64,000 nucleotides of DNA from Oceanicaulis alexandrii DSM 11625 (GCF_000420265.1 NZ_ATUP01000001.1:2108001-2172000), one strand, 5' to 3'. Shown: positions 4,743 to 58,630, counted from the stretch's first letter. Notes: a model not told the origin generated them from the letters alone. Translations and numbers: made by a program.

Positions 4743-7496
4743 ATGGATGAATTGATCGGCGAGTTTCTCGCAGAGACGTCGGAAAGCCTCGACGTCATTG
4801 ACGAAGAGCTTGTAAAATTTGAAGCAGATCCGACGGATCGCGCGACGCTGGATAATATTTTCCGGCTCTTGCACACCATCAAGGGAACGTGCGGCTTCCT
4901 GGGTCTGGAAAGACTGGAAGCCATCGCCCACGCTGGTGAAACCTTGCTGGGCAAGTTCCGCGACGGCGACATGATCGCGGACTCCACGGCGGTGACCGTG
5001 GTTCTCAAATCGCTTGACCGGATCAAAGAGATCACGAACGGCCTCGAACAGAACGGCGTTGAGCCTGCGGGCGAAGACCGCGACTTGATCGACCGCCTTG
5101 AAGCGCTGTCCATGGGCAAGGGCGATCCGGGAGAAGCTGGCGGGGCTGCGGCTCCGGTCGCTGAAGCGGTGCCAGAGCCAGAAGTGCAGCCTGAGCCTGA
5201 ACCCGAACCTGAAGTGGTTGCTGAAGAAGCGCCTACGGGCTTCGACGCTGATCTGGGGCGTGATTTGCGGCCCGGCGAAGTCTCTCTGGCTGATCTGGAA
5301 GCGGCCTTCATGTCGACGCCGGGACCGGAGTTTGATGCGGACGCGGATTCTGAAGCTGAACACGACGCAGAAGCAGAAGAGCTCGAGGCTGAGGTTGAGG
5401 TGAAAGCTGAAGCTGAACCTACGCCGAAGGCGGCGGCTGCGGCGCCGGCCGCGCCGGCCAAGGCGGCCGCCAATGACGATGCTGGACAGCAAACCTCGCA
5501 CCGCTCCCAGGCGACGATCCGCGTGAATGTGGATACGCTTGAGAACCTGATGACGACGGTGTCCGAACTGGTTCTGGCGCGTAATCAGCTGCACCAGATT
5601 GTACGCGATTCCGACGATTCAGCCCTGAAGACGCCGCTGCAACGCCTGTCCTCCGTTACTGCAGAGCTGCAGGACGGGGTGATGAAGACCCGCATGCAGC
5701 CCGTCGGCGACGCCTGGCGTAAACTGCCGCGCATCGTGCGCGACGTCAGCCAGGAAGTCGGCAAGAAGATTCGCCTGGTTCAGGAAGGCGAAGACACCGA
5801 ACTTGACCGCCAGGTTCTTGAGCTGATCCGTGACCCGCTCACCCACATGATCCGCAATTCCTGCGATCATGGCCTGGAGACCCCCGAGGAACGGGTGGCC
5901 GCCGGCAAGAGCGAAATGGGCACTGTGAAACTGTCCGCCTATCACGAAGGCGGCGCCATCATCATGAAGATCACGGATGATGGCCGAGGTCTGAACGCTG
6001 TCAAAATTCGTGAAAAGGTCCTTGAGAAGGGCCTGGCCACCGAAGCCGAAATGGAGACGATGAGCGAGGCGCAGATCCAGCGCTTCATCTTCGCTCCGGG
6101 GTTCTCGACGGCGGCCGCTGTGACCAACCTGTCCGGCCGCGGCGTCGGCATGGACGTGGTCCGGACGAATATCGAACAAATCGGCGGGTCCATCGAACTG
6201 TTCTCCGAACAGGGCAAAGGCACCACCTTCACGATCAAGATCCCGCTGACGCTGGCGATCGTCTCCGCACTGATCGTCAAATCGGGCGAACAGCGCTTTG
6301 CTGCTCCTCAGCTCTCCGTGCGTGAGCTGGTCCGTGTGGGCGCCGGCTCTTCTATCGCAGTCGAAACGCTGAACGGCGCGAACATGATCCGCCTGCGGGA
6401 TCGTCTGTTGCCTGTGATTGCGCTGACCGAAGTCCTCAACACCGCTCCGCCGACTTCTGCGGATGAGATGACGGGTTATGTCATCGTTCTGGAGGCGGCG
6501 GGCCGCAAGATCGGCCTGGTGGTCGATGATGTTCTGGACACCGAAGAGATCGTGGTCAAACCGCTCTCCGGACCGCTGCGCAGCATCAACGTGTTCTCCG
6601 GCGCGACCATTCTGGGCGACGGTTCGGTCATCATGATCCTGGATCCCAATGGTCTGGCTCAGGAAACCTCGTCCGCTGAGGATGAGGAGAAGAGCGACGC
6701 GACCGCAGAGGATGCGGCCGAAGCGAATGGCGCCAATGGCCGACAGCGTCTGCTGCTGGTGCGTGCGGGCGGTGAAGAGCCGAAAGCGGTTCCTGTCAGC
6801 CTCATCACGCGTCTGGAAGACTTTGAATCAAACACCATCGAACAGACCGATGGCCGTTACGTGGTTCAGTATCGTGGACGCTTGCTGCCTCTGGCGCATG
6901 CGGGCGGCATGGACACCTTCAAGACCGAAGGCCGACAGCCGGTTCTGGTGTTCGCCGAGGATGGCCGGTCTGCGGGCGTGGCCGTGGACGAAATTCTCGA
7001 TGTGGTGGAAGAGCGTCTCGACCTGGAAATGGGATCCGAGCGTCCCGGCGTGATCGGCTCGGCCATCATCAAGGGCAAGGCGACCGAAGTCCTCGACATC
7101 GCCTGGCACATGCAACGCGCCTGGGCTGGCGCGCCGCAGCGCAAGGGCCGGACCGGCACGGGTCGCAATGCGGTGCTGCTGGTGGAGGCGGACGCCTTCT
7201 CCCGACGCATGCTGGCCCCGCTTCTGGCGGCGGCGGGTTATGACGTGACGGTGGCGGGCGGTCTGCACGAAGCGCGCGACGCCGCAACCATGGGCGCGGA
7301 ATATGATGTGCTCGTCGGCGACCCGGCTGCACTTGCGCGTCTTCAGGAAGAAGGCGTTTACACCAATGTGCCTAGACTGGGCGTGGGTGAGCACGATTAC
7401 GCCACGCCGAGTGATGGCTTTGTCGCCATCATGCCGGCTGGAGATCGTGGCGGCCTGATCGCAGCGCTGGACCAAGCAGCGCGCAGCGCGGCCTAG
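4743..7496 (+). CDS. cheA: Chemotaxis histidine kinase CheA with extra C-terminal domains
   Basis: This 917-residue protein is the kinase of the receptor signalling array; it phosphorylates CheY and CheB. Domains in order: HPt/P1 at ~1-105 with phosphoacceptor His44 in LLHTIKGTCGF; an acidic Ala/Glu/Pro linker at ~125-255 in place of a clear P2; dimerisation domain ~258-325; ATPase domain with N-box HMIRNSCDHGLE at ~365-377 and a later GRGVGMDVV box; a CheW-like P5 domain at ~510-640; then a second CheW-like domain at ~660-795; and a receiver-like domain at ~810-917. The last has an EAD acidic cluster and an Asp in VLVGDPA but lacks the conserved Lys (IMPAG where a KP is expected), so it is probably degenerate. 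It leads the cheAWYBR operon; cheW follows 12 bp later. Confidence 0.95.
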   Translation: MDELIGEFLAETSESLDVIDEELVKFEADPTDRATLDNIFRLLHTIKGTCGFLGLERLEAIAHAGETLLGKFRDGDMIADSTAVTVVLKSLDRIKEITNGLEQNGVEPAGEDRDLIDRLEALSMGKGDPGEAGGAAAPVAEAVPEPEVQPEPEPEPEVVAEEAPTGFDADLGRDLRPGEVSLADLEAAFMSTPGPEFDADADSEAEHDAEAEELEAEVEVKAEAEPTPKAAAAAPAAPAKAAANDDAGQQTSHRSQATIRVNVDTLENLMTTVSELVLARNQLHQIVRDSDDSALKTPLQRLSSVTAELQDGVMKTRMQPVGDAWRKLPRIVRDVSQEVGKKIRLVQEGEDTELDRQVLELIRDPLTHMIRNSCDHGLETPEERVAAGKSEMGTVKLSAYHEGGAIIMKITDDGRGLNAVKIREKVLEKGLATEAEMETMSEAQIQRFIFAPGFSTAAAVTNLSGRGVGMDVVRTNIEQIGGSIELFSEQGKGTTFTIKIPLTLAIVSALIVKSGEQRFAAPQLSVRELVRVGAGSSIAVETLNGANMIRLRDRLLPVIALTEVLNTAPPTSADEMTGYVIVLEAAGRKIGLVVDDVLDTEEIVVKPLSGPLRSINVFSGATILGDGSVIMILDPNGLAQETSSAEDEEKSDATAEDAAEANGANGRQRLLLVRAGGEEPKAVPVSLITRLEDFESNTIEQTDGRYVVQYRGRLLPLAHAGGMDTFKTEGRQPVLVFAEDGRSAGVAVDEILDVVEERLDLEMGSERPGVIGSAIIKGKATEVLDIAWHMQRAWAGAPQRKGRTGTGRNAVLLVEADAFSRRMLAPLLAAAGYDVTVAGGLHEARDAATMGAEYDVLVGDPAALARLQEEGVYTNVPRLGVGEHDYATPSDGFVAIMPAGDRGGLIAALDQAARSAA

Positions 7497-7508: not shown

Positions 7509-7958
7509 ATGTCTGTTGAAGATAGCTTCGAATACGTCACGGTCCGGATCGGCGATCAGCTGTTCGGCGTCGAAGTTAAGCAGATCCGGGAGGTGTTTTC
7601 TCCGCAAGACGTCACGTCCGTGCCACGTGCGCCGGGCGAGGTCGCTGGCCTGTTGAACCTGCGCGGCCGTATCGTCACCGCCGTGGACGCCCGCCATCGT
7701 CTGGGTTTGCCGCCGCGTGAACCTGGCGCATCGGCCATGGCGCTGGGCCTTGAAGAAGGCACCGAGCTGTTTGGCGTGCTGGTGGATCAGGTCGGAGAAG
7801 TGATGCGGCTGAAGCCCGATACGCTCGAACCGACCCCCGCACACCTGGACCCGCAATGGCGCGCCCTGCTCAAAGGGGTGCACCGCTTGGAAAAAGACCT
7901 TTTGGCGGTTCTGGACATCAGAGCGCTGATCGCCTGGCAAGCCGGACTTGCGGCTTAA
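7509..7958 (+). CDS. cheW: Chemotaxis coupling protein CheW
   Basis: This 149-residue single-domain CheW couples methyl-accepting receptors to CheA in the cytoplasmic array. It begins with the typical YVTVRIGDQLFGVEV strand, has the conserved LNLRGRIVTAVDAR segment near residues 55-70, and a VLVDQVGEVMRL strand near residue 90-100. The ribosome-binding sequence GAGGAG lies close to the cheA stop, and the gene is 12 bp from cheA and 15 bp from cheY, so it is surely in the same operon. Length is normal for the family. No oddity seen. Confidence 0.95.
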   Translation: MSVEDSFEYVTVRIGDQLFGVEVKQIREVFSPQDVTSVPRAPGEVAGLLNLRGRIVTAVDARHRLGLPPREPGASAMALGLEEGTELFGVLVDQVGEVMRLKPDTLEPTPAHLDPQWRALLKGVHRLEKDLLAVLDIRALIAWQAGLAA

Positions 7959-8352: not shown

Positions 8353-9429
8353 GTGAGCGTTTCTCCTTCTCCAGCCGGCCGGAGCGGTTTGCCCAGCGTC
8401 CTGATCATCGATGATAGCGCCGTCGTGCGCGGTCTGGTCTCGCGCTGGATCGAAGCCGACTCCAGATTGCAAGTGGCGGCGACCTGCGCAGACGGTGAAG
8501 TGGGCGTGCGCAAGGCTGCAGAGCTGCAGCCCGATATTGTGGTGCTCGACATCGAGATGCCGCGTATGGACGGGCTGACCGCGCTGCCGCAGATCCTCAA
8601 GGCGTGCCCCAAGGCCAAGGTCGTGATGGCGTCGACGCTGACCCTGAAGGGCGGCGAGATCACCATGCGCGCCTTGTCTCTGGGGGCGGCTGACTATGCG
8701 CCCAAGCCTGAAGCCGGCCGCGTGGCCGGAGCGGAAGCCTATCGCAAGGAATTGCTCGACAAGCTGGTCGCGCTCAGCCCGCGGTCTGCAGGCGTCGCGC
8801 CGCGTCCGGCGGCTGTGCGTCCGGCGACACCGCGCCCTGTTGCGCCAGCGCGAAAGCCCAGCCTGATTGCGATCGGGTCGTCTACAGGCGGCCCGCAGGC
8901 GCTGCGCGAAGTCATCGCCGCATTGCCGCGGGATATCAAAGTACCCATCGTCATCACTCAGCACATGCCCAAGCTGTTCACCGCGATTTTGGCCGAACAT
9001 CTGAGCAAGCTTGGAATGCCAGCGGCCGAAGCCAAGGAAGGCGAACCGCTGCGTCCGGGGCGCATCTATCTCGCGCCGGGTGATTTCCACATGACTCTGC
9101 GGTCCGCCAATGGGGTGATCAGCACCCATATCGACCAATCCCCGCCCGTGAATTTCTGCCGTCCCGCCGTGGATCCGTTGTTCAACAGCTGCGCCAAGGT
9201 TGCAGGCAACGGCGTGCTCGCCGTCGTGCTGACCGGAATGGGGCATGATGGACGCGACGGCGCTCGCACGATCCGTGAAGCCGGCGGCCAGGTGATCGCG
9301 CAGGACCAGGCGTCCAGCGTGGTCTGGGGCATGCCGGGCGCGGTGGCCGAAGCGGGACTCGCAGACCAGATCTTAAGCCTGAAAGATATTGGCCCGGAGC
9401 TGTCCCGGCGCCTGAAAGGACCGCTATGA
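8353..9429 (+). CDS. cheB: Chemotaxis protein-glutamate methylesterase CheB
   Basis: This 358-residue protein removes methyl groups from receptor glutamates for adaptation. The N-terminal receiver has DDS and phosphoacceptor Asp66 in VVLDIEMPRMDG. After a Pro/Ala-rich linker (~140-165) the methylesterase domain has the triad Ser177 (GSSTGGPQ), His204 (TQHMP) and Asp299 (GMGHDGRDGA). The start is uncertain: an open frame reaches back to a TTG at 8290 inside cheY, but a GTG at 8353, 13 bp after the cheY stop, removes the overlap and still leaves the whole receiver. No strong Shine-Dalgarno precedes it. The stop overlaps the cheR start (ATGA). Confidence 0.94.
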   Translation: MSVSPSPAGRSGLPSVLIIDDSAVVRGLVSRWIEADSRLQVAATCADGEVGVRKAAELQPDIVVLDIEMPRMDGLTALPQILKACPKAKVVMASTLTLKGGEITMRALSLGAADYAPKPEAGRVAGAEAYRKELLDKLVALSPRSAGVAPRPAAVRPATPRPVAPARKPSLIAIGSSTGGPQALREVIAALPRDIKVPIVITQHMPKLFTAILAEHLSKLGMPAAEAKEGEPLRPGRIYLAPGDFHMTLRSANGVISTHIDQSPPVNFCRPAVDPLFNSCAKVAGNGVLAVVLTGMGHDGRDGARTIREAGGQVIAQDQASSVVWGMPGAVAEAGLADQILSLKDIGPELSRRLKGPL

Positions 9430-10256
9430 GCGCTCTTCCTTCCAACAAGTTTGACTTTCTTTGTCAGGATGTTCGCAAGCGTTCCGGCCTGGTTCTGGGG
9501 CAGGAAAAAGCCTACCTGGTCGATAGCCGGTTGGGCCCGCTTGCGCGGAAGGAAGGCTTTGCGTCTGTCGAGGCGTTGATTGACGCCATGATGCGCGGCG
9601 ATACCCGGATTTGCGTTGCGGCGAGTGAAGCGCTGGCCACCCACGAAACGTTCTTCTTCCGCGACAAGACGCCTTTCGACCTGTTTGAAAACGTCATCGC
9701 GCCGGCGCTGAAGTCAGCGCGGATGGGGCGGTCCCTGAAAATCTGGTGCGCCGCAGCCTCCTCCGGCCAGGAGCCGTATTCTTTGGGCATGCTGCTGGAT
9801 GAGATTCCCGGCCTGAACGCAGACATTCTGGCGACCGACATGAGCGCGCCGGTTCTGGAGAAGGCCAAGGCTGGGATCTATACCCAGTTTGAAGTGCAAC
9901 GTGGTTTGCCGATCCAGCGGTTGGTGAAGAACTTTGATCAGGTGGGCGATTCCTGGCGGATCAAACCGCAATTGCGACAGAAAGTGCGGTTTGAGCAGGC
10001 CAACCTGCTTGACGATTTTTCGCGATTTGGTCGCATGGACGTGATTTTCTGCCGCAATGTGCTGATCTATTTCGATATCCAGACCAAGGCGAAAATCCTG
10101 GATCGTCTGGCGTCGCTGCTGGCCGATGACGGTTTCTTGCTGCTCGGCGCCGCTGAGACGGTGGTGGGTTTGACGGACAATCTGCGTCCGATCAGCGGCC
10201 ATCGCGGCCTTTACGCCAAGCCGGCGATGGCGGCGAAGCTGACCAACGCCGCCTGA
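9426..10256 (+). CDS. cheR: Chemotaxis receptor methyltransferase CheR
   Basis: This 276-residue enzyme methylates receptor glutamate residues using S-adenosylmethionine, opposite to CheB. The N-terminal helical domain (~1-75) precedes the methyltransferase fold, with the family sequence THETFFFRDKTPF, the SAM-binding CAAASSGQEPYSLGM (about residues 104-118) and the FCRNVLIYFD motif near residue 205-215. The length is normal. ATG overlaps the cheB TGA, indicating translational coupling. It closes the cheAWYBR operon, and a convergent gene ends only 6 bp away. No cheD and no receptor gene are in this operon; an MCP lies elsewhere in the window at 56688. Confidence 0.95.
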   Translation: MSALPSNKFDFLCQDVRKRSGLVLGQEKAYLVDSRLGPLARKEGFASVEALIDAMMRGDTRICVAASEALATHETFFFRDKTPFDLFENVIAPALKSARMGRSLKIWCAAASSGQEPYSLGMLLDEIPGLNADILATDMSAPVLEKAKAGIYTQFEVQRGLPIQRLVKNFDQVGDSWRIKPQLRQKVRFEQANLLDDFSRFGRMDVIFCRNVLIYFDIQTKAKILDRLASLLADDGFLLLGAAETVVGLTDNLRPISGHRGLYAKPAMAAKLTNAA

Positions 10257-50343: not shown

Positions 50344-52764
50344 ATGAAAAAGATTTTGGGCGCCGTATCATTAGCTGCGCTGACGGCTGCGACGGCTTAC
50401 GCACAATCCGCTGACACTGACGACACCATCGTGGTGGTGGGAACCCGGTCCGAGGGCCGGACCGCGCTTCAAACCACAGCGCCTGTAGACGTGGTGGATG
50501 TCAGCGCGCTTGAAAACACCGGGATCACCGAACTCAACGCGGCGCTGGCGTACAGCTTGCCGTCGTTCAACTTCCCAAGCCCCTCCATCACCGACGGTAC
50601 TGACCATGTGCGCCCGGCGACCTTGCGCGGCCTGGGGCCGGACCAGACGCTGGTCCTGGTCAATTCGCGCCGTCGTCACGCCTCGGCCCTGGTCAATCTG
50701 GGCGGTTCGGTCGGGCGTGGTTCCGCCGCTGTGGACCTCAACACCATACCCACCGCCGCGATCGGCCAGGTGCAGGTGCTGCGGGACGGCGCTTCGGCGC
50801 AATATGGCTCTGACGCCATCGCCGGGGTGATCGATGTTCAACTGCGTGAGGCCAGCGAAGGCGGGCAGGTCAGCGCCACTTATGGCCGTTACGCCACGGA
50901 CATTCCGCTGACCACGGGCGAGCGCACCGCCAGCGATGGCGAAACCGTCAACCTTTCGGGCTGGGTGGGGCTGCCGCTCGGCGCAGACGGGTTCCTGACC
51001 TTGTCGGCGGAATATCTTGATCGCGCGCCCACCAACCGCGCCGGCCCCGATCCGCGCCAGCAATATCCCAGCCTGCCTGGCGGCGGGCTCGACCCGCGTG
51101 AGCAGACTTTTGATCGCATCAATCACCGCTTTGGCCTGGCGGACGCGGAAGCGTTCTCTTTCTTCGCCAATGCAGGCCTGCCGATCAATGCAACGACCGA
51201 GCTTTACGGCTGGGCGGGCTATCAGTCCCGAGAAGGCGAGGCGGCCGGCTTTTATCGCCGCGCTCAGGACAGCCGCAATGTGCTGGCGATCTATCCGGAC
51301 GGCTTCCTGCCGTTGATCACCACCGATATCGAGGACTTCTCAGCTGTGGGCGGCGCGCGCGGCGTTATTGGCGGCTGGGATTGGGACGCGTCCCTGGGCT
51401 ATGGCCGCAACGAGCTGGCCTATGGCGTGGAGAATTCGCTCAATACGTCCCTGGGCGCATCCAGCCCGACGTCGTTTGACGCCGGTTCGCTGATCTATGA
51501 CCAGATCACCGGCAATCTCGATTTCGTCCGCTCTTATGATCTGGATGGATTCGCCGGCCCGCTCTCGGTGGCGTTTGGCGCTGAATACCGCCTTGAAGGC
51601 TATGAAATCCAAGCGGGCGAGGAAGCCAGCTATATCACGGGCGATCCGACCAAAGCGGGCGGCAGCCAGGTCTTTCCAGGCTTCCAGCCGGGCAATGAGG
51701 TCGATGAAGACCGCGATTCCTTTGGCGTCTATCTCGATCTCGAAGCTGATGTCACGGACCGGCTCTTGCTGACAGGCGCCGTGCGGGCGGAGACCTATTC
51801 AGACTTCGGCGAGACCGTGACGGGCCGCGTGTCCGCACGCTATGAGCTGAGCGAGACTGTCGCCCTTCGTGGCGCGATTTCCAACGGCTTCCGGGCGCCG
51901 TCGCTGCAGCAGGCCTATTTCACGTCCACTTCGACCGTCTTTGTTGGGACGCCGCCCACGCCTGTTGAAGTGGGGACCTTCCCCGCTGACAGCGCCGTCG
52001 CTGCTGCGCTGGGCGGGGAACCGCTCGATGCTGAAGAGTCGATGAACTATTCGGGCGGCGTCGTCTTCACCCAGGGCGCTTTCAGCCTGACCGTGGACGC
52101 GTACGCCATTGATATCGACAACCGCATCGTCCTGTCTGAGAACCTTTCGGGCGCGACGGTGGAGAGCCTCCTGCAGGCGGCGGGCGTCAACGGCGTGACC
52201 CGTGCGCGCTTCTTCATCAACGGGGTCGAGACCGAGACGCGCGGCGTCGATGTGGTGGCGACCTATGGCGTGGACACCGAGCGGTTCGGTGATTTCAACT
52301 TCACTCTGGGCTATAACCGCAACGACACCGAGGTCACCCAGGCGCCAAGCTCTGAAGTGCTTCCGGGCGTGACCTTGTTCGCGCGTCGGGAAATCGCGCG
52401 CTTTGAAGAGGGCCAGCCGGACGACAAGCTGATCGGTTCGGTCAACTGGACCCGCGGCGCCTTTGGCGGCGTGCTGCGCGCTACCCGCTTCGGCGAGACG
52501 GTCGATCCGGGCTCGGCGGCGGATGGATCGGGTGATGAAGTGCTGGATCCCAAGACCATTGTGGACGCGGAATTCTCTGCAGATGTCTTTGAAGGCCTGA
52601 CCGTGTCCTTCGGGGCGAACAATCTGTTTGACGAGTATCCCGACGCGACGTCGCTTGATCCCAATCTGGCGGGGACGTTCTCGGACATCTTCCCGTTCTC
52701 CGGCTTCAGCCCGTTCGGCTTCTCGGGACGCTATGTCTACGGGCGCATTCGCTACGCCTGGTAA
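50344..52764 (+). CDS. TonB-dependent outer membrane receptor
   Basis: This 806-residue protein has a signal peptide cleaved after AYA (about residue 20) and a TonB-box-like DTIVVVGTRSE. The plug domain has ITELNAALAYSLPSFNFPSPS, ATLRGLGPDQTLVLVNSRRR and QVQVLRDGASAQYGSDAIAG, a style common to marine and Caulobacter-type receptors. The barrel ends GRIRYAW with a terminal aromatic residue. It is divergent from the LysR gene and followed by its own terminator and a P1-family peptidase, so its cargo may be a peptide or amino-acid derivative; this is inferred from context only. Confidence 0.92.
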   Translation: MKKILGAVSLAALTAATAYAQSADTDDTIVVVGTRSEGRTALQTTAPVDVVDVSALENTGITELNAALAYSLPSFNFPSPSITDGTDHVRPATLRGLGPDQTLVLVNSRRRHASALVNLGGSVGRGSAAVDLNTIPTAAIGQVQVLRDGASAQYGSDAIAGVIDVQLREASEGGQVSATYGRYATDIPLTTGERTASDGETVNLSGWVGLPLGADGFLTLSAEYLDRAPTNRAGPDPRQQYPSLPGGGLDPREQTFDRINHRFGLADAEAFSFFANAGLPINATTELYGWAGYQSREGEAAGFYRRAQDSRNVLAIYPDGFLPLITTDIEDFSAVGGARGVIGGWDWDASLGYGRNELAYGVENSLNTSLGASSPTSFDAGSLIYDQITGNLDFVRSYDLDGFAGPLSVAFGAEYRLEGYEIQAGEEASYITGDPTKAGGSQVFPGFQPGNEVDEDRDSFGVYLDLEADVTDRLLLTGAVRAETYSDFGETVTGRVSARYELSETVALRGAISNGFRAPSLQQAYFTSTSTVFVGTPPTPVEVGTFPADSAVAAALGGEPLDAEESMNYSGGVVFTQGAFSLTVDAYAIDIDNRIVLSENLSGATVESLLQAAGVNGVTRARFFINGVETETRGVDVVATYGVDTERFGDFNFTLGYNRNDTEVTQAPSSEVLPGVTLFARREIARFEEGQPDDKLIGSVNWTRGAFGGVLRATRFGETVDPGSAADGSGDEVLDPKTIVDAEFSADVFEGLTVSFGANNLFDEYPDATSLDPNLAGTFSDIFPFSGFSPFGFSGRYVYGRIRYAW

Positions 52765-54024: not shown

Positions 54025-54528
54025 ATGATCCGCATTTTAAGTGCAGCCGGCCTGGCCCTGCTGCTGAGCAGCGCGGCCACCGCGCAAACAACCGAGCGCG
54101 ACCTGGCTGTGGTCGGTCGAGCGCTCAGCTTCCTTGAGGGCGCGTCCGGTTCTGACCGGACCGTCGCTATCGTGTTTGATCCGGCGAGCCAGGCGGAAGC
54201 CGAAGCACTGAACGCGGCCATGGCGGGCGGTCTCAGCGCAGGCCGCGTGACCCTGAACGGTCAGCTTGTCCCGCTGGGCCAGGCGGTCAGCGGCGTACAT
54301 GCCGCCATGTTCGTCGGGGGCGCAGCCTCTGACGCGGGCGCCGTGCAAGCGGCCACCTCTGCCGGCGTGATGACAGTCTCCACAGACATGGCCTGCGTGC
54401 AGGCCGGCAATTGCGTGATGGGCGTCCAGAGCGAGCCCTCCGTGCGCATTGTGGTGAACAACGCGGCTGCAAGCTCAGCCTCTGTCAGCTTCTCCACCGC
54501 TTTCGCCATGATGGTCGAAGAAATCTAA
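54025..54528 (+). CDS. Small periplasmic YfiR-like protein
   Basis: This 167-residue protein has a signal peptide (cleaved after TAQ, residue ~21) and a single ~140-residue domain. Segments VAIVFDPASQAEAEAL, VSGVHAAMFVGGAASDAG, GVMTVSTDMACVQAGNCVMGV and VRIVVNNAAASSASVSFSTAFA resemble the C-terminal half of YfiR-family proteins (DUF4154), where a Cys pair and a VN..A..A strand occur. YfiR in Pseudomonas is a periplasmic repressor of a membrane signalling enzyme. The match is from memory and partial. It lies 25 bp upstream of a short TonB-dependent receptor and in line with an MCP. I chose the ATG at 54025 because it starts a clear signal peptide. Confidence 0.6.
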   Translation: MIRILSAAGLALLLSSAATAQTTERDLAVVGRALSFLEGASGSDRTVAIVFDPASQAEAEALNAAMAGGLSAGRVTLNGQLVPLGQAVSGVHAAMFVGGAASDAGAVQAATSAGVMTVSTDMACVQAGNCVMGVQSEPSVRIVVNNAAASSASVSFSTAFAMMVEEI

Positions 54529-54553
54529 CGCCGCCTCCTAAGGAATCGAGACG

Positions 54554-56551
54554 ATGAAAAATACCCTGCTTTATTCCGCGGCGGCGCTGATCGCGACCTC
54601 CGCAGCCGCCAACGCCCAGTCCATCGACTATCAGGTGATGGGCGACATGTTCGGCGAGCCGGTGACTACCGGCGCTACCGGTGCGCCGCAGCGCTCCACC
54701 GAAGTGCCCGCAACGATGATCATCATCACCCAGGATGATATCGCCAGTGCGCCGGAATACGACCTCCCCGGCATTCTGCGCCATTACAGCGGCGTGGATG
54801 TGGCCCGGTTCTCCATGGGCCAGGGCGAAGTGGGCATCCGCTCCGCCGCCACGCCCTACACCCCGCGCCTTCTGGTGCTGGTGAACGGCCGCGAAGTCTA
54901 TCTCGACAGCTATGGCTACACCGCCTGGTCGACCCTGCCGGTGACCTTGGAAGAGATCCAGCAGATCGAAGTGGTCAAAGGGCCCCAGTCGGCGCTTTAC
55001 GGCTTTAATGCCGTGGCCGGCGTCATCAACATCATCACCCGCAACCCCGCCTATGGCGATTACGCCAACGCAACGGCGGAAGTGGGGACCAACGGCTACC
55101 AGCAATATCGCCTGTCTGGCGGTCGCGCGCTCAATGACCAGATCGCTCTGCGCTTCAGCTATGGCCGTACGGATGCTCGCGACTTTGACGTTGAGCCGGA
55201 CGCGATCGAAGCCAACACCCTGCGCGCCGCCAACCCTGACTTCGAGCGTGAACATTTCGCACTCGGCGGTACGGTTCAGTTCACCGGTAAAGTGGGCCTG
55301 ACCTTTGAATACACCCAGTCCGAAGCCGAAGTGCTCGAACTGACTTCGATTTATTCGTCCGCCGCTAACGCATATGACCTGACTTCATATCAGGCCGAAT
55401 TCGGCGCTGACACGGACTTTGGCTACATCACGCTCAGCGCGTATCGCAATGATTCCGAGATTGCCTACAGCTTTGGCGATCTTGAAGGCGAACTGACTTC
55501 GTTCAAGCTGCAGGATCTGATCAAGATCGGTACGAATGATACGGTCCGCGTAGCGGTCGAATTCCGCACCGCCCAGACTGCATCCTTCCCGGATACGACG
55601 GCCGGTGATCTGAACTATGAAACCCTGGCGTTCTCGGGCATGTGGAACCACAAGTTCTCCAGCTCGCTCGAGACCACTCTGGCGGTTCGCTATGACATGG
55701 TGGACTGGAGCCGTGACGGCTCGCCGAACCCGGCGCTCTATCCGTATACCCAGGCTGACTTTGACGTCAGCATCGAAGAGTTCAGCTATAACGCGGCTCT
55801 GGTCTACACGCCGGAATTCGGCGGCACGGTTCGCCTCTCCGCCGCCCGCGGCATTCAGGCGCCAACCATGTTCGACATGGGCTTCCTGCTGCCGGTTGGC
55901 ACTGCGGTCCTGATCGGCGATCCGTCGATCCAGCCGGCGATCGTGGACAATCTGGAAGTCGCGTATGATCGCACCTTGTCCAATGGCGTTCAGCTGCGCT
56001 CGGCGCTGTTCTGGCAAAACACCGACGATGTGAAATCGTCCTTGGGTGGTGCGCCGACAGTGTTCCCGCCTAATGCACCGCTTCCGGCCTATGTGTTCGG
56101 AAACCGGGGTGAAAGCCAGCTCTGGGGCTTTGAAGGCTCGCTCGCGGGCATGATCGGCGAGAGCGTGAACTGGGACGTCAACTACACCTACAAGTCTGTT
56201 GAAGATGATCTGACGCCGTTCCCGACGACGACGTTGTTGGACTTTGAAGGCGTGACGCCCGAGCATACTTTCAACGCCCATGTGGGCTGGACGGGCGGCA
56301 AGCTGAGCCTGGACGGCTACATGAATTATGTGTCGGAAACGACCATGCCGTTCCAGCCGGTTTTCGGCCTGGTGTCATCGCGTGAGATCGATGGTCATGT
56401 GTCCTTCTCTGGCCGCGCCAGCTACGCCCTCACCGACAATCTGGACCTGTCGGTGACAGCCCAGAACGTCAACTTCGATGATGGCGAGCTGACCACCCCG
56501 GTTTATGAGACCGAGGCGCGGTACTGGGTGAGCCTGCGGGCGAACTTCTAA
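54554..56551 (+). CDS. Short TonB-dependent receptor
   Basis: This 665-residue receptor has a signal peptide cleaved after ANA (about residue 21) and a plug with EYDLPGILRHYSGVDVARFS and IRSAATPYTPRLLVLVNGRE, then QQIEVVKGPQSALYGFNAVAGVINIITRNPA, a style common in short receptors found beside YfiR proteins. The barrel ends YWVSLRANF. It starts 25 bp after the YfiR-like gene (AAGGAA upstream), so the two are co-transcribed. An MCP follows 136 bp later. Its cargo is unknown; the pairing suggests it may sense rather than only import a ligand. Confidence 0.9.
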   Translation: MKNTLLYSAAALIATSAAANAQSIDYQVMGDMFGEPVTTGATGAPQRSTEVPATMIIITQDDIASAPEYDLPGILRHYSGVDVARFSMGQGEVGIRSAATPYTPRLLVLVNGREVYLDSYGYTAWSTLPVTLEEIQQIEVVKGPQSALYGFNAVAGVINIITRNPAYGDYANATAEVGTNGYQQYRLSGGRALNDQIALRFSYGRTDARDFDVEPDAIEANTLRAANPDFEREHFALGGTVQFTGKVGLTFEYTQSEAEVLELTSIYSSAANAYDLTSYQAEFGADTDFGYITLSAYRNDSEIAYSFGDLEGELTSFKLQDLIKIGTNDTVRVAVEFRTAQTASFPDTTAGDLNYETLAFSGMWNHKFSSSLETTLAVRYDMVDWSRDGSPNPALYPYTQADFDVSIEEFSYNAALVYTPEFGGTVRLSAARGIQAPTMFDMGFLLPVGTAVLIGDPSIQPAIVDNLEVAYDRTLSNGVQLRSALFWQNTDDVKSSLGGAPTVFPPNAPLPAYVFGNRGESQLWGFEGSLAGMIGESVNWDVNYTYKSVEDDLTPFPTTTLLDFEGVTPEHTFNAHVGWTGGKLSLDGYMNYVSETTMPFQPVFGLVSSREIDGHVSFSGRASYALTDNLDLSVTAQNVNFDDGELTTPVYETEARYWVSLRANF

Positions 56552-56687
56552 AAGGCCTGATTGTATCGCCGCCTCGTCTGTGACGGGGCGGCGATGCCGC
56601 AACGAGCATCCATAACCTATTAAACTATCAGGCTTAGGTTGGTGATAACCATATGCTCGCGCTGGGATTACAAGGGGTCGCGCTATC

Positions 56688-58382
56688 ATGTTCAAGCGTC
56701 TGAGATTTAATGACTGGCCATTTTCGCTCAAGTTTGGCGTCGCGCCGGCTCTGGCGGTTCTGGCCTTGATCGGCATCGCCCTGATGGGCGGGTTCGCCCT
56801 CAACGGGGTGGCCAAAAGCCAGGAAGAAACCGTCCAGCGCCTGACGGGCGTCATTGCGCTCGATTCCCTGAGAACTGAAACCGAATCCCTGAACGCTGAT
56901 GTCTACCAGACGCTGACCGCTGTCGCAGCGGGGCAGTCGGTGGACGTATTCGCCGCTTTTGACGGCTATATCGCCCGCGTGGGCGAGCTGCGGGAAAGCT
57001 TCGCCCTGATGGGCGCCGAAGCCGGCCCGGAGAGTCAGGCCGTCTTCGCCAATCTTGACGAACAGCTGGAGCTTTACGCCGGCGGCCTTGAGGTCGTGGG
57101 CTCCATGCTGGAAATGGATTTCGCCAGCGCCGTCGGTTTTGTCGAGCCGTTTGATGAAGTGTTCGCGCAAATGAACGCGGATATCGTCAATCTGAGTGAA
57201 ACCGCAGTCGCCGAGGCCCAGGCGGGCGCGGACGCCGCGAAGGCGTCTGCCGCTCAGACCAAATGGATGTTCGCCATTGTCACCCTGCTGGTGGCTCTGG
57301 GTCTGACTGGGGTCGCCTTCGGCTTTGGCCGAGCGGTCAGCCAGTCGGTGAAAAAGATCGCGAACGCCACACAGAAACTGGCGGGCGGTGACTTCGCGGT
57401 CGAAGTGGCCTCTCTCAAGCGCGCAGACGAACTCGGTTCGATCGTTGAATCGCTTGAGACCTTCCGCAATAGCGGCCAGGAAGCCTTCAAGCTGCAAGAA
57501 GAGCGTCAACGCGCAACTGAGGCCGAGGCTGAACGCGCCCGCAAGATTGAAACCCTGGCGGCTGATTTTGACTCTGCCGTGGAACGCACGCTGGAAGCGG
57601 TGACCATGTCCGCCAGCGCGCTGCAGGAAACCGCTGAAGTGCTGGTTGGCGCGTCCGCCAACACCACCAGCCGCGCAGGCGAAGTGTCAGGCGCCGGCGC
57701 CGTGGCGTCCCAAGCTGTGGCCACGGTGGCCTCGGCGGCTGAAGAACTCTCCGCCTCGGTCTCCGAGATCGCGGCCCAGGTCGAACGTTCGAGCGATGTG
57801 TCGGGCCAGGCCAAGGACCGGATGGAGCGCGCTTCCTCCGAGATGACCCAACTGACCAGCGCCGCCAATGAAATCGACCAGGTGGTCAAGCTGATCTCCG
57901 ACATCGCCGAGCAGACCAATCTGCTGGCCCTGAACGCCACCATCGAGGCGGCCCGCGCCGGCGAAGCCGGCAAGGGCTTCGCTGTGGTGGCCAGTGAAGT
58001 GAAGACGCTGGCCGAACAGACCGGCCGGGCGACCGGGCAGATCTCCAATCAGATCACCCAGATCCAGTCCGCCACCGGCGCCGTGGAAAGCGCCATGGAT
58101 GAAGTGCGCGGCGTGATTGAGGAAATGTTGAACGTGGCCTCGGCCATCAATGCGGCCATTGACGAGCAGCGGGCAGCCTCTAACGAGATCGCCAGCTCGG
58201 CGCAGAGCGCAGCGTCTGAAACCCAGCGCGTCTCCGCCAATATCGAACAGGTCAGCCGCTCTGCGGACGAGACCAGTGGTCAGGCCGGCACCGTGCAGGA
58301 AACCGCCGCCACTGTCCGCCAGGAAGCGGGCGGGCTGGCCAGCCGGGTGCGCGAATTCCTCTCGGCTGTCCGCGCAGCGTAA
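56688..58382 (+). CDS. Methyl-accepting chemotaxis protein
   Basis: This 564-residue receptor has a transmembrane helix at ~20-40, a ~150-residue periplasmic helical sensor (~41-190, a 4-helix-bundle-like region rich in Ala, Glu and Leu), a second helix at ~198-218, a HAMP domain at ~220-275 and a cytoplasmic signalling coiled coil. The tip is [28 protein letters not shown] (from Glu408). No C-terminal NWETF-like CheR/CheB tether is seen. ATG at 56688 has AAGGGG upstream. It is in line with the YfiR-like and receptor genes and would feed the CheA at 4743. Confidence 0.93.
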
Positions 58383-58553: not shown

Positions 58554-58630
58554 GCGCCGGTAGCTCAGCTGGATAGAGCACCAGACTACGAATCTGGGGG
58601 TCGGGAGTTCGAATCTTCCCCGGCGCGCCA
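58554..58630 (+). tRNA. tRNA-Arg (anticodon ACG)
   Basis: A 77-nt cloverleaf fits: 7-bp acceptor stem GCGCCGG/CCGGCGC (58554-58560 with 58620-58626), D-arm with TAGCTCAGCTGG, anticodon stem CCAGA/TCTGG with loop CTACGAA, so anticodon ACG (A34, expected to be edited to inosine to read CGN), T-arm with GTTCGAATC, discriminator G and encoded CCA (58628-58630). It is flanked by the MCP and the metal-efflux genes. Confidence 0.97.

Follow-up and report, generated by a model that had tools for sequence, protein, structure and literature searches.

Conserved linkage of a YfiR-fold periplasmic protein, a TonB-dependent receptor and a chemoreceptor in Oceanicaulis alexandrii: a possible trans-envelope chemosensory module

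Can a bacterium steer by a ligand that is met by a receptor of its outer membrane? This question is raised by three consecutive genes in a stretch of 64,000 nucleotides (hereafter, the window) of the Oceanicaulis alexandrii DSM 11625 genome (GCF_000420265.1, NZ_ATUP01000001.1:2108001-2172000). The genes encode a small YfiR-like periplasmic protein, a TonB-dependent outer-membrane receptor (TBDR) and a methyl-accepting chemotaxis protein (MCP). A first-pass annotation of the window suggested that the three proteins could sense a ligand at the cell surface. The three open reading frames were confirmed on one strand (Table 1), with 25 bp between the YfiR-like gene and the TBDR gene and 136 bp between the TBDR and MCP genes. 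According to the present analysis, the trio probably constitutes a trans-envelope chemosensory module, in which the TBDR would act through the YfiR-fold protein on the MCP.

Conservation of the trio was assessed in 99 related genomes of the family, which were searched with the YfiR-like protein and, separately, with the MCP sensor domain. The YfiR-like query was positive in 14 genomes, and strong sensor-domain matches (E < 1e-30) were found in exactly those 14, with two more genomes giving weak matches (E 8e-6). The p value for this co-occurrence in the Fisher test, which ignores shared ancestry, was 3e-15. Within the genus, three of the 11 genomes (that of the window included) contain the YfiR-like protein or the sensor, and all three contain both. 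Apart from the window, 11 loci carry the YfiR, TBDR and MCP genes in this order and on the same strand. The flanks of these trios differ from one genus to another (Oceanicaulis, Maricaulis and Marinicauda); the gene order on which the earlier suggestion leaned is kept in relatives. The locus of one genome (G046) is cut by contig ends. In the Woodsholea genome (G010), neither of the two YfiR-TBDR pairs adjoins an MCP gene, but an unlinked MCP has the same sensor (L108). In one genome (L022; also L037), the YfiR-TBDR pair is tandemly duplicated before a single MCP gene, and both YfiR copies are identical across nearly all of the mature protein.

The search with the sensor domain in other alphaproteobacterial families revealed 11 sensor genes of the MCP or kinase type, six of which have both a YfiR-like gene and a TBDR gene as neighbours. 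The gene orders were MCP-YfiR-TBDR (L065), TBDR-YfiR-MCP (L072) and YfiR-TBDR-MCP (L067, L069, L073 and L074). Searches that started from YfiR added a locus of another family in the same order of bacteria (L103), where the neighbouring MCP has the same sensor, and a locus (L123) where the MCP next to the pair differs in its N-terminal part, giving a total of eight further alphaproteobacterial trios in three gene orders. Related YfiR-TBDR pairs adjoin GGDEF-EAL proteins (L106 and L122) or a hybrid histidine kinase (L121). Clustering that is retained despite a permuted order is hard to explain without shared function, and the linkage of the trio at the gene level is strongly supported. The 136 bp that separate the MCP gene from the TBDR gene, and the strong hairpin within them, could be taken to mean that the three are chance neighbours, or unrelated genes that are expressed separately. 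However, trios with rearranged gene order and other flanks recur outside the family, and the presence of the YfiR-like protein and of the sensor coincides in 14 of 14 family genomes; as to linkage, this explanation is already refuted, and as a whole it is highly improbable.

The small protein had been called YfiR-like, a description that its predicted fold upholds clearly and the profile hidden Markov model search only weakly. The match to PF13689 (YfiR / DUF4154) had an E value of 0.0011 and 19.5 bits, below the Pfam gathering cut-off of 24.9; the homologous protein of the L067 trio reached 21.8 bits. For NF053591 (TOL_0243 family), the E value was 3.4e-4. A search of the sequences of solved structures with the YfiR profile matched nothing relevant. 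The AlphaFold2 model of the mature protein (predicted local distance difference test score, pLDDT, 77; predicted template modelling score 0.72) superposed on the Pseudomonas aeruginosa YfiR structures 4zhu, 4yn7 and 5eb1 with Z 13.8-13.9 and a root-mean-square deviation of 2.9-3.0 over 136-138 of 147 residues, while unrelated folds gave Z of about 9. YfiR was absent from the top 50 of the first-choice Foldseek matches and was named on a second look. Judged by the model, the small protein clearly has the YfiR fold. Its residues C124 and C130 are invariant in all 20 aligned homologues and may be the counterparts of the YfiR disulfide Cys145-Cys152. Domains of substrate-binding proteins (3lkv, 3lft and a Rhodothermus protein) match the model as highly as YfiR does, so the fold alone cannot tell a regulator from a binding protein.

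The occurrence of conventional YfiR genes points to a more widely distributed architecture. Of 299 genomes of the phylum, 70 gave a match to NF053591. Analysis of 40 neighbourhoods of conventional YfiR genes showed an adjacent TBDR in 27, a histidine kinase in 21 and a GGDEF protein in 5; in this phylum sample, an MCP stood beside conventional YfiR in none of the 40. The periplasmic domain CHASE8, the Pfam sensor domain of YfiN, was found in all six transducer partners scanned (L203, L208, L210, L213, L216 and L223). A module composed of a TBDR, YfiR and a CHASE8 transducer with histidine kinase or GGDEF-EAL output is widespread (loci among L186-L225). The trio is the chemotaxis version of this module, with the MCP as transducer and a four-helix sensor replacing CHASE8.

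The relatedness of the YfiR fold to the above substrate-binding proteins also agrees with uptake combined with ordinary chemotaxis, where the TBDR imports a nutrient, the YfiR-like protein binds it and the MCP senses it directly; the genes would then be linked by a substrate and not by a relay. Direct recognition of small molecules is common among four-helix MCP sensors (PcaY, MCP2201, Tar). However, the flanks of the trios differ between genera, with no recurring gene for an inner-membrane transporter or for catabolism among those seen, and the TBDR-YfiR pair accompanies CHASE8 kinases and GGDEF-EAL proteins as well, so that this explanation appears unlikely.

The best NCBIfam match of the trio TBDR was the TOL_0244 family (NF053590; E 2e-36, 125.6 bits, far below the cut-off of 645). 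Pfam analysis detected no N-terminal signalling (STN) domain in this receptor, and the Plug domain begins at residue 50. After the signal peptide, alphaproteobacterial YfiR-linked TBDRs of the trio kind start with AQ(S/T)(L/I/M)(D/N)YxxMxxLFGEPVTxSATGxPQR in all families seen. Where trio TBDRs carry LDYxxMxxLFGEPVT, kinase-linked TBDRs carry LsLEeLmniVTsaSRk. The other plug proteins of the genome whose N-termini were read lack the signature and have usual TonB boxes (DxITVTA, DTIVVTG); this comparison excludes L130, L131 and L147, which lie on the minus strand, and the final plug match. This distribution of a sequence motif suggests that the receptor talks to YfiR.

The MCP has a Tar-like domain architecture (Table 1). 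In the AlphaFold2 model of residues 1-260, its sensor is a helical bundle (pLDDT 73), whose fold matched MCP sensors, NarQ, LytSN of the XylFII-LytSN complex and an entry of the QseG-QseE complex, although helical bundles match easily. The MCP-sensor profile, compared with the sequences of solved structures, matched just repeats, coiled coils and other helical proteins. Assignment of the sensor to CHASE8 was rejected, as no Pfam CHASE8 match was obtained. Invariant positions are concentrated in residues 125-159 (21 of 35) and 72-98 (9 of 27), whereas 2 of the 95 positions in the rest of the periplasmic part (37-71, 99-124 and 160-193) are invariant. The tip motif MLExDFxxAVxxxxPF, or a close variant, was also observed in MCPs and histidine kinases without a neighbouring YfiR gene (L066, L068, L070 and L071).

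Such conservation of the membrane-distal tip fits the docking of a partner. It is likewise expected in binding-protein-assisted chemotaxis of the maltose-binding protein/Tar style, where an imported ligand loads the YfiR-like protein, the liganded protein docks on the MCP tip and the TBDR is a gate. The XylFII-LytSN complex among the fold matches gives a precedent, and YfiR binds vitamin B6 and L-Trp weakly (PMC4887326). This scheme is nevertheless distinctly unlikely given the receptor N-terminal signature described above, which suggests that the receptor itself communicates with YfiR.

The proposed module is most readily compared with YfiBNR of P. aeruginosa (PMC4887326), where YfiR represses YfiN via the YfiN periplasmic domain, in agreement with the first-pass statement that YfiR elsewhere represses a membrane signalling enzyme. 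In YfiBNR, and as proposed for the trio, a periplasmic mediator with the YfiR fold connects a component of the outer membrane to a signalling protein of the inner membrane. The outer-membrane partner in YfiBNR is the OmpA/Pal-like lipoprotein YfiB, whereas that in the trio is a TBDR; the effector in YfiBNR is a PAS/CHASE8-HAMP-GGDEF enzyme, whereas that in the trio is an MCP with a four-helix sensor and no CHASE8 match. In the TBDR-YfiR-CHASE8 kinase and GGDEF-EAL modules, as in the trio, the TBDR and YfiR genes adjoin a transducer with a periplasmic sensor; these modules differ in the CHASE8 sensor, the kinase or cyclic di-GMP output, the conventional DUF4154 YfiR and the N-terminus of the TBDR.

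From these parallel modules we infer that the signal passes from the TBDR to the YfiR-fold protein and then to the MCP; the contacts, the direction and sign of signalling, and the ligand are proposed by analogy with YfiBNR. The TBDR would meet its ligand at the cell surface and, when occupied or cycling with TonB, would alter its short N-terminal periplasmic peptide. This peptide would recruit or release the YfiR-fold protein, which would bind the membrane-distal tip of the MCP four-helix sensor and set its CheA-activating state. Swimming would thus be biased by the ligand without need for the ligand at the inner membrane. The idea of trans-envelope sensing gains from the gene linkage, the conserved order and the fold, while the signal flow itself is drawn from the parallels.

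Several observations weigh against this mechanism. YfiR-TBDR pairs occur without an adjacent transducer (L047, L050, L051, L101 and L102), and the sensor motif is also present in MCPs or kinases without an adjacent YfiR gene (L066, L068, L070, L071 and L075). Conservation of the tip would also suit a small-molecule pocket, as in Tar. The class-wide presence of YfiR in seven of nine sensor genomes (p 1e-10) has little weight and is partly circular, since some rows of alignment A3 had been found next to the sensor. In addition, the MCP gene may be transcribed separately, from its own promoter.

The TBDR-MCP gap is 72-136 bp long and contains a GC-rich hairpin of 13-16 bp without a U-run in 12 of 12 loci (the window and L018-L028), the hairpin sequences being different. 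A consensus scan of this gap in the window found no sigma70-like promoter and no T-tailed terminator. It is possible that the hairpin causes partial termination with read-through, which would leave the receptor in excess over the MCP. GGTTAA / TTAACC half-sites, which resemble the CtrA box, were observed near the YfiR start, upstream of it, in L020-L026, and also after the hairpin in the TBDR-MCP gaps of Maricaulis. Such motifs make control of the trio by a motility regulator possible.

Table 1. Features of the trio locus, with positions counted from the first nucleotide of the window
Feature	Position	Strand	Comment
YfiR-fold periplasmic protein, 167 aa	54025-54528	+	ATG at 54025; signal peptide ~1-20/21, ends ...ATAQ
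TBDR, 665 aa	54554-56551	+	Pfam Plug E 6e-17, barrel E 9e-29
Mature TBDR N-terminal periplasmic peptide, QSIDYQVMGDMFGEPVTTGATGAPQ	54617-54691	+	Signature of YfiR-linked receptors; candidate docking / TonB-box segment
TBDR-MCP gap with strong stem-loop (~56565-56604) without U-run	56552-56687	+	Fold -54.7 kcal/mol
MCP, 564 aa	56688-58382	+	Transmembrane segment TM1, predicted four-helix (helical-bundle) periplasmic sensor, TM2, HAMP, MCP signalling domain MCPsignal (Pfam; AlphaFold2 model, residues 1-260)
Membrane-distal tip of MCP sensor, residues 72-98 and 125-159	56901-57164	+	Most conserved periplasmic part; motif EQLxLYxxxLxxVGxMLExDFASxVxFxxPFxxVF
tRNA-Arg downstream of MCP	58554-58630		

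The window also contains genes of CheA (4743-7496), CheW (7509-7958) and CheR (9426-10256). The first-pass annotation had correctly placed a CheA near 4743 and regarded the trio MCP as its only receptor gene in the window. The MCP is indeed the sole receptor gene within the window, but a special link to this CheA was rejected because the genome has 16 MCPs, the next one about 2 kb beyond the window end. Two genes upstream of the trio, at 50344-52764, lies another TBDR gene, whose product has a TonB box of the ordinary type; it is kept in the two other Oceanicaulis trio loci and was not found in the stretches fetched around the Maricaulis and Marinicauda trios.

Literature data on related receptors were also considered. 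In PMC9788540 and PMC6304351, OmpS of Alcanivorax dieselolei is described as sensing extracellular alkanes and triggering chemotaxis, TOL_0244 of Thalassolituus is reported to be 40.3% similar to OmpS, and no YfiR-MCP linkage is stated for OmpS or TOL_0243/TOL_0244. These systems involve a TBDR of a kind similar to that of the trio. Alkanes as the ligand are only a lead; the trio TBDR scores so far below the TOL_0244 cut-off that its ligand may be quite different. FecA-type transducing TBDRs likewise pass a signal through the periplasm from the outer membrane; by comparison, the trio TBDR has no detected N-terminal signalling domain, the proposed relay is a soluble YfiR-fold protein and the output is chemotaxis. 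In Tar/maltose-binding protein and XylFII-LytS (5xsj), as proposed for the trio, a periplasmic protein docks on a four-helix sensor; in the trio, however, the soluble partner resembles YfiR, and its gene is linked to that of an outer-membrane receptor.

A literature search, which covered few subscription papers, found no report in which YfiR is connected to a chemoreceptor, or CHASE8 to TonB. The first-pass remark that no described chemotaxis system of such a form was known agrees with this result. Neither the chemotaxis trio nor the TBDR-YfiR-CHASE8 module was found described in the literature searched; to our knowledge, the parts are known and the combination is new.

According to current understanding, chemoreceptors detect their ligands in the periplasm, membrane or cytoplasm. 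There is an even prospect that the trio represents a class of systems that steer by the occupancy of an outer-membrane receptor via a YfiR-fold relay, and that this class is one branch of a TBDR-YfiR-transducer architecture with an MCP, histidine kinase or GGDEF-EAL protein. The trio offers testable genes and a candidate docking surface. If the proposed mechanism is true, the cells could direct their swimming by substrates that are large, insoluble or imported with the aid of TonB and that never arrive at the inner membrane, and the YfiR relay may be a general adaptor by which outer-membrane receptors are plugged into chemotaxis, two-component or cyclic di-GMP outputs.

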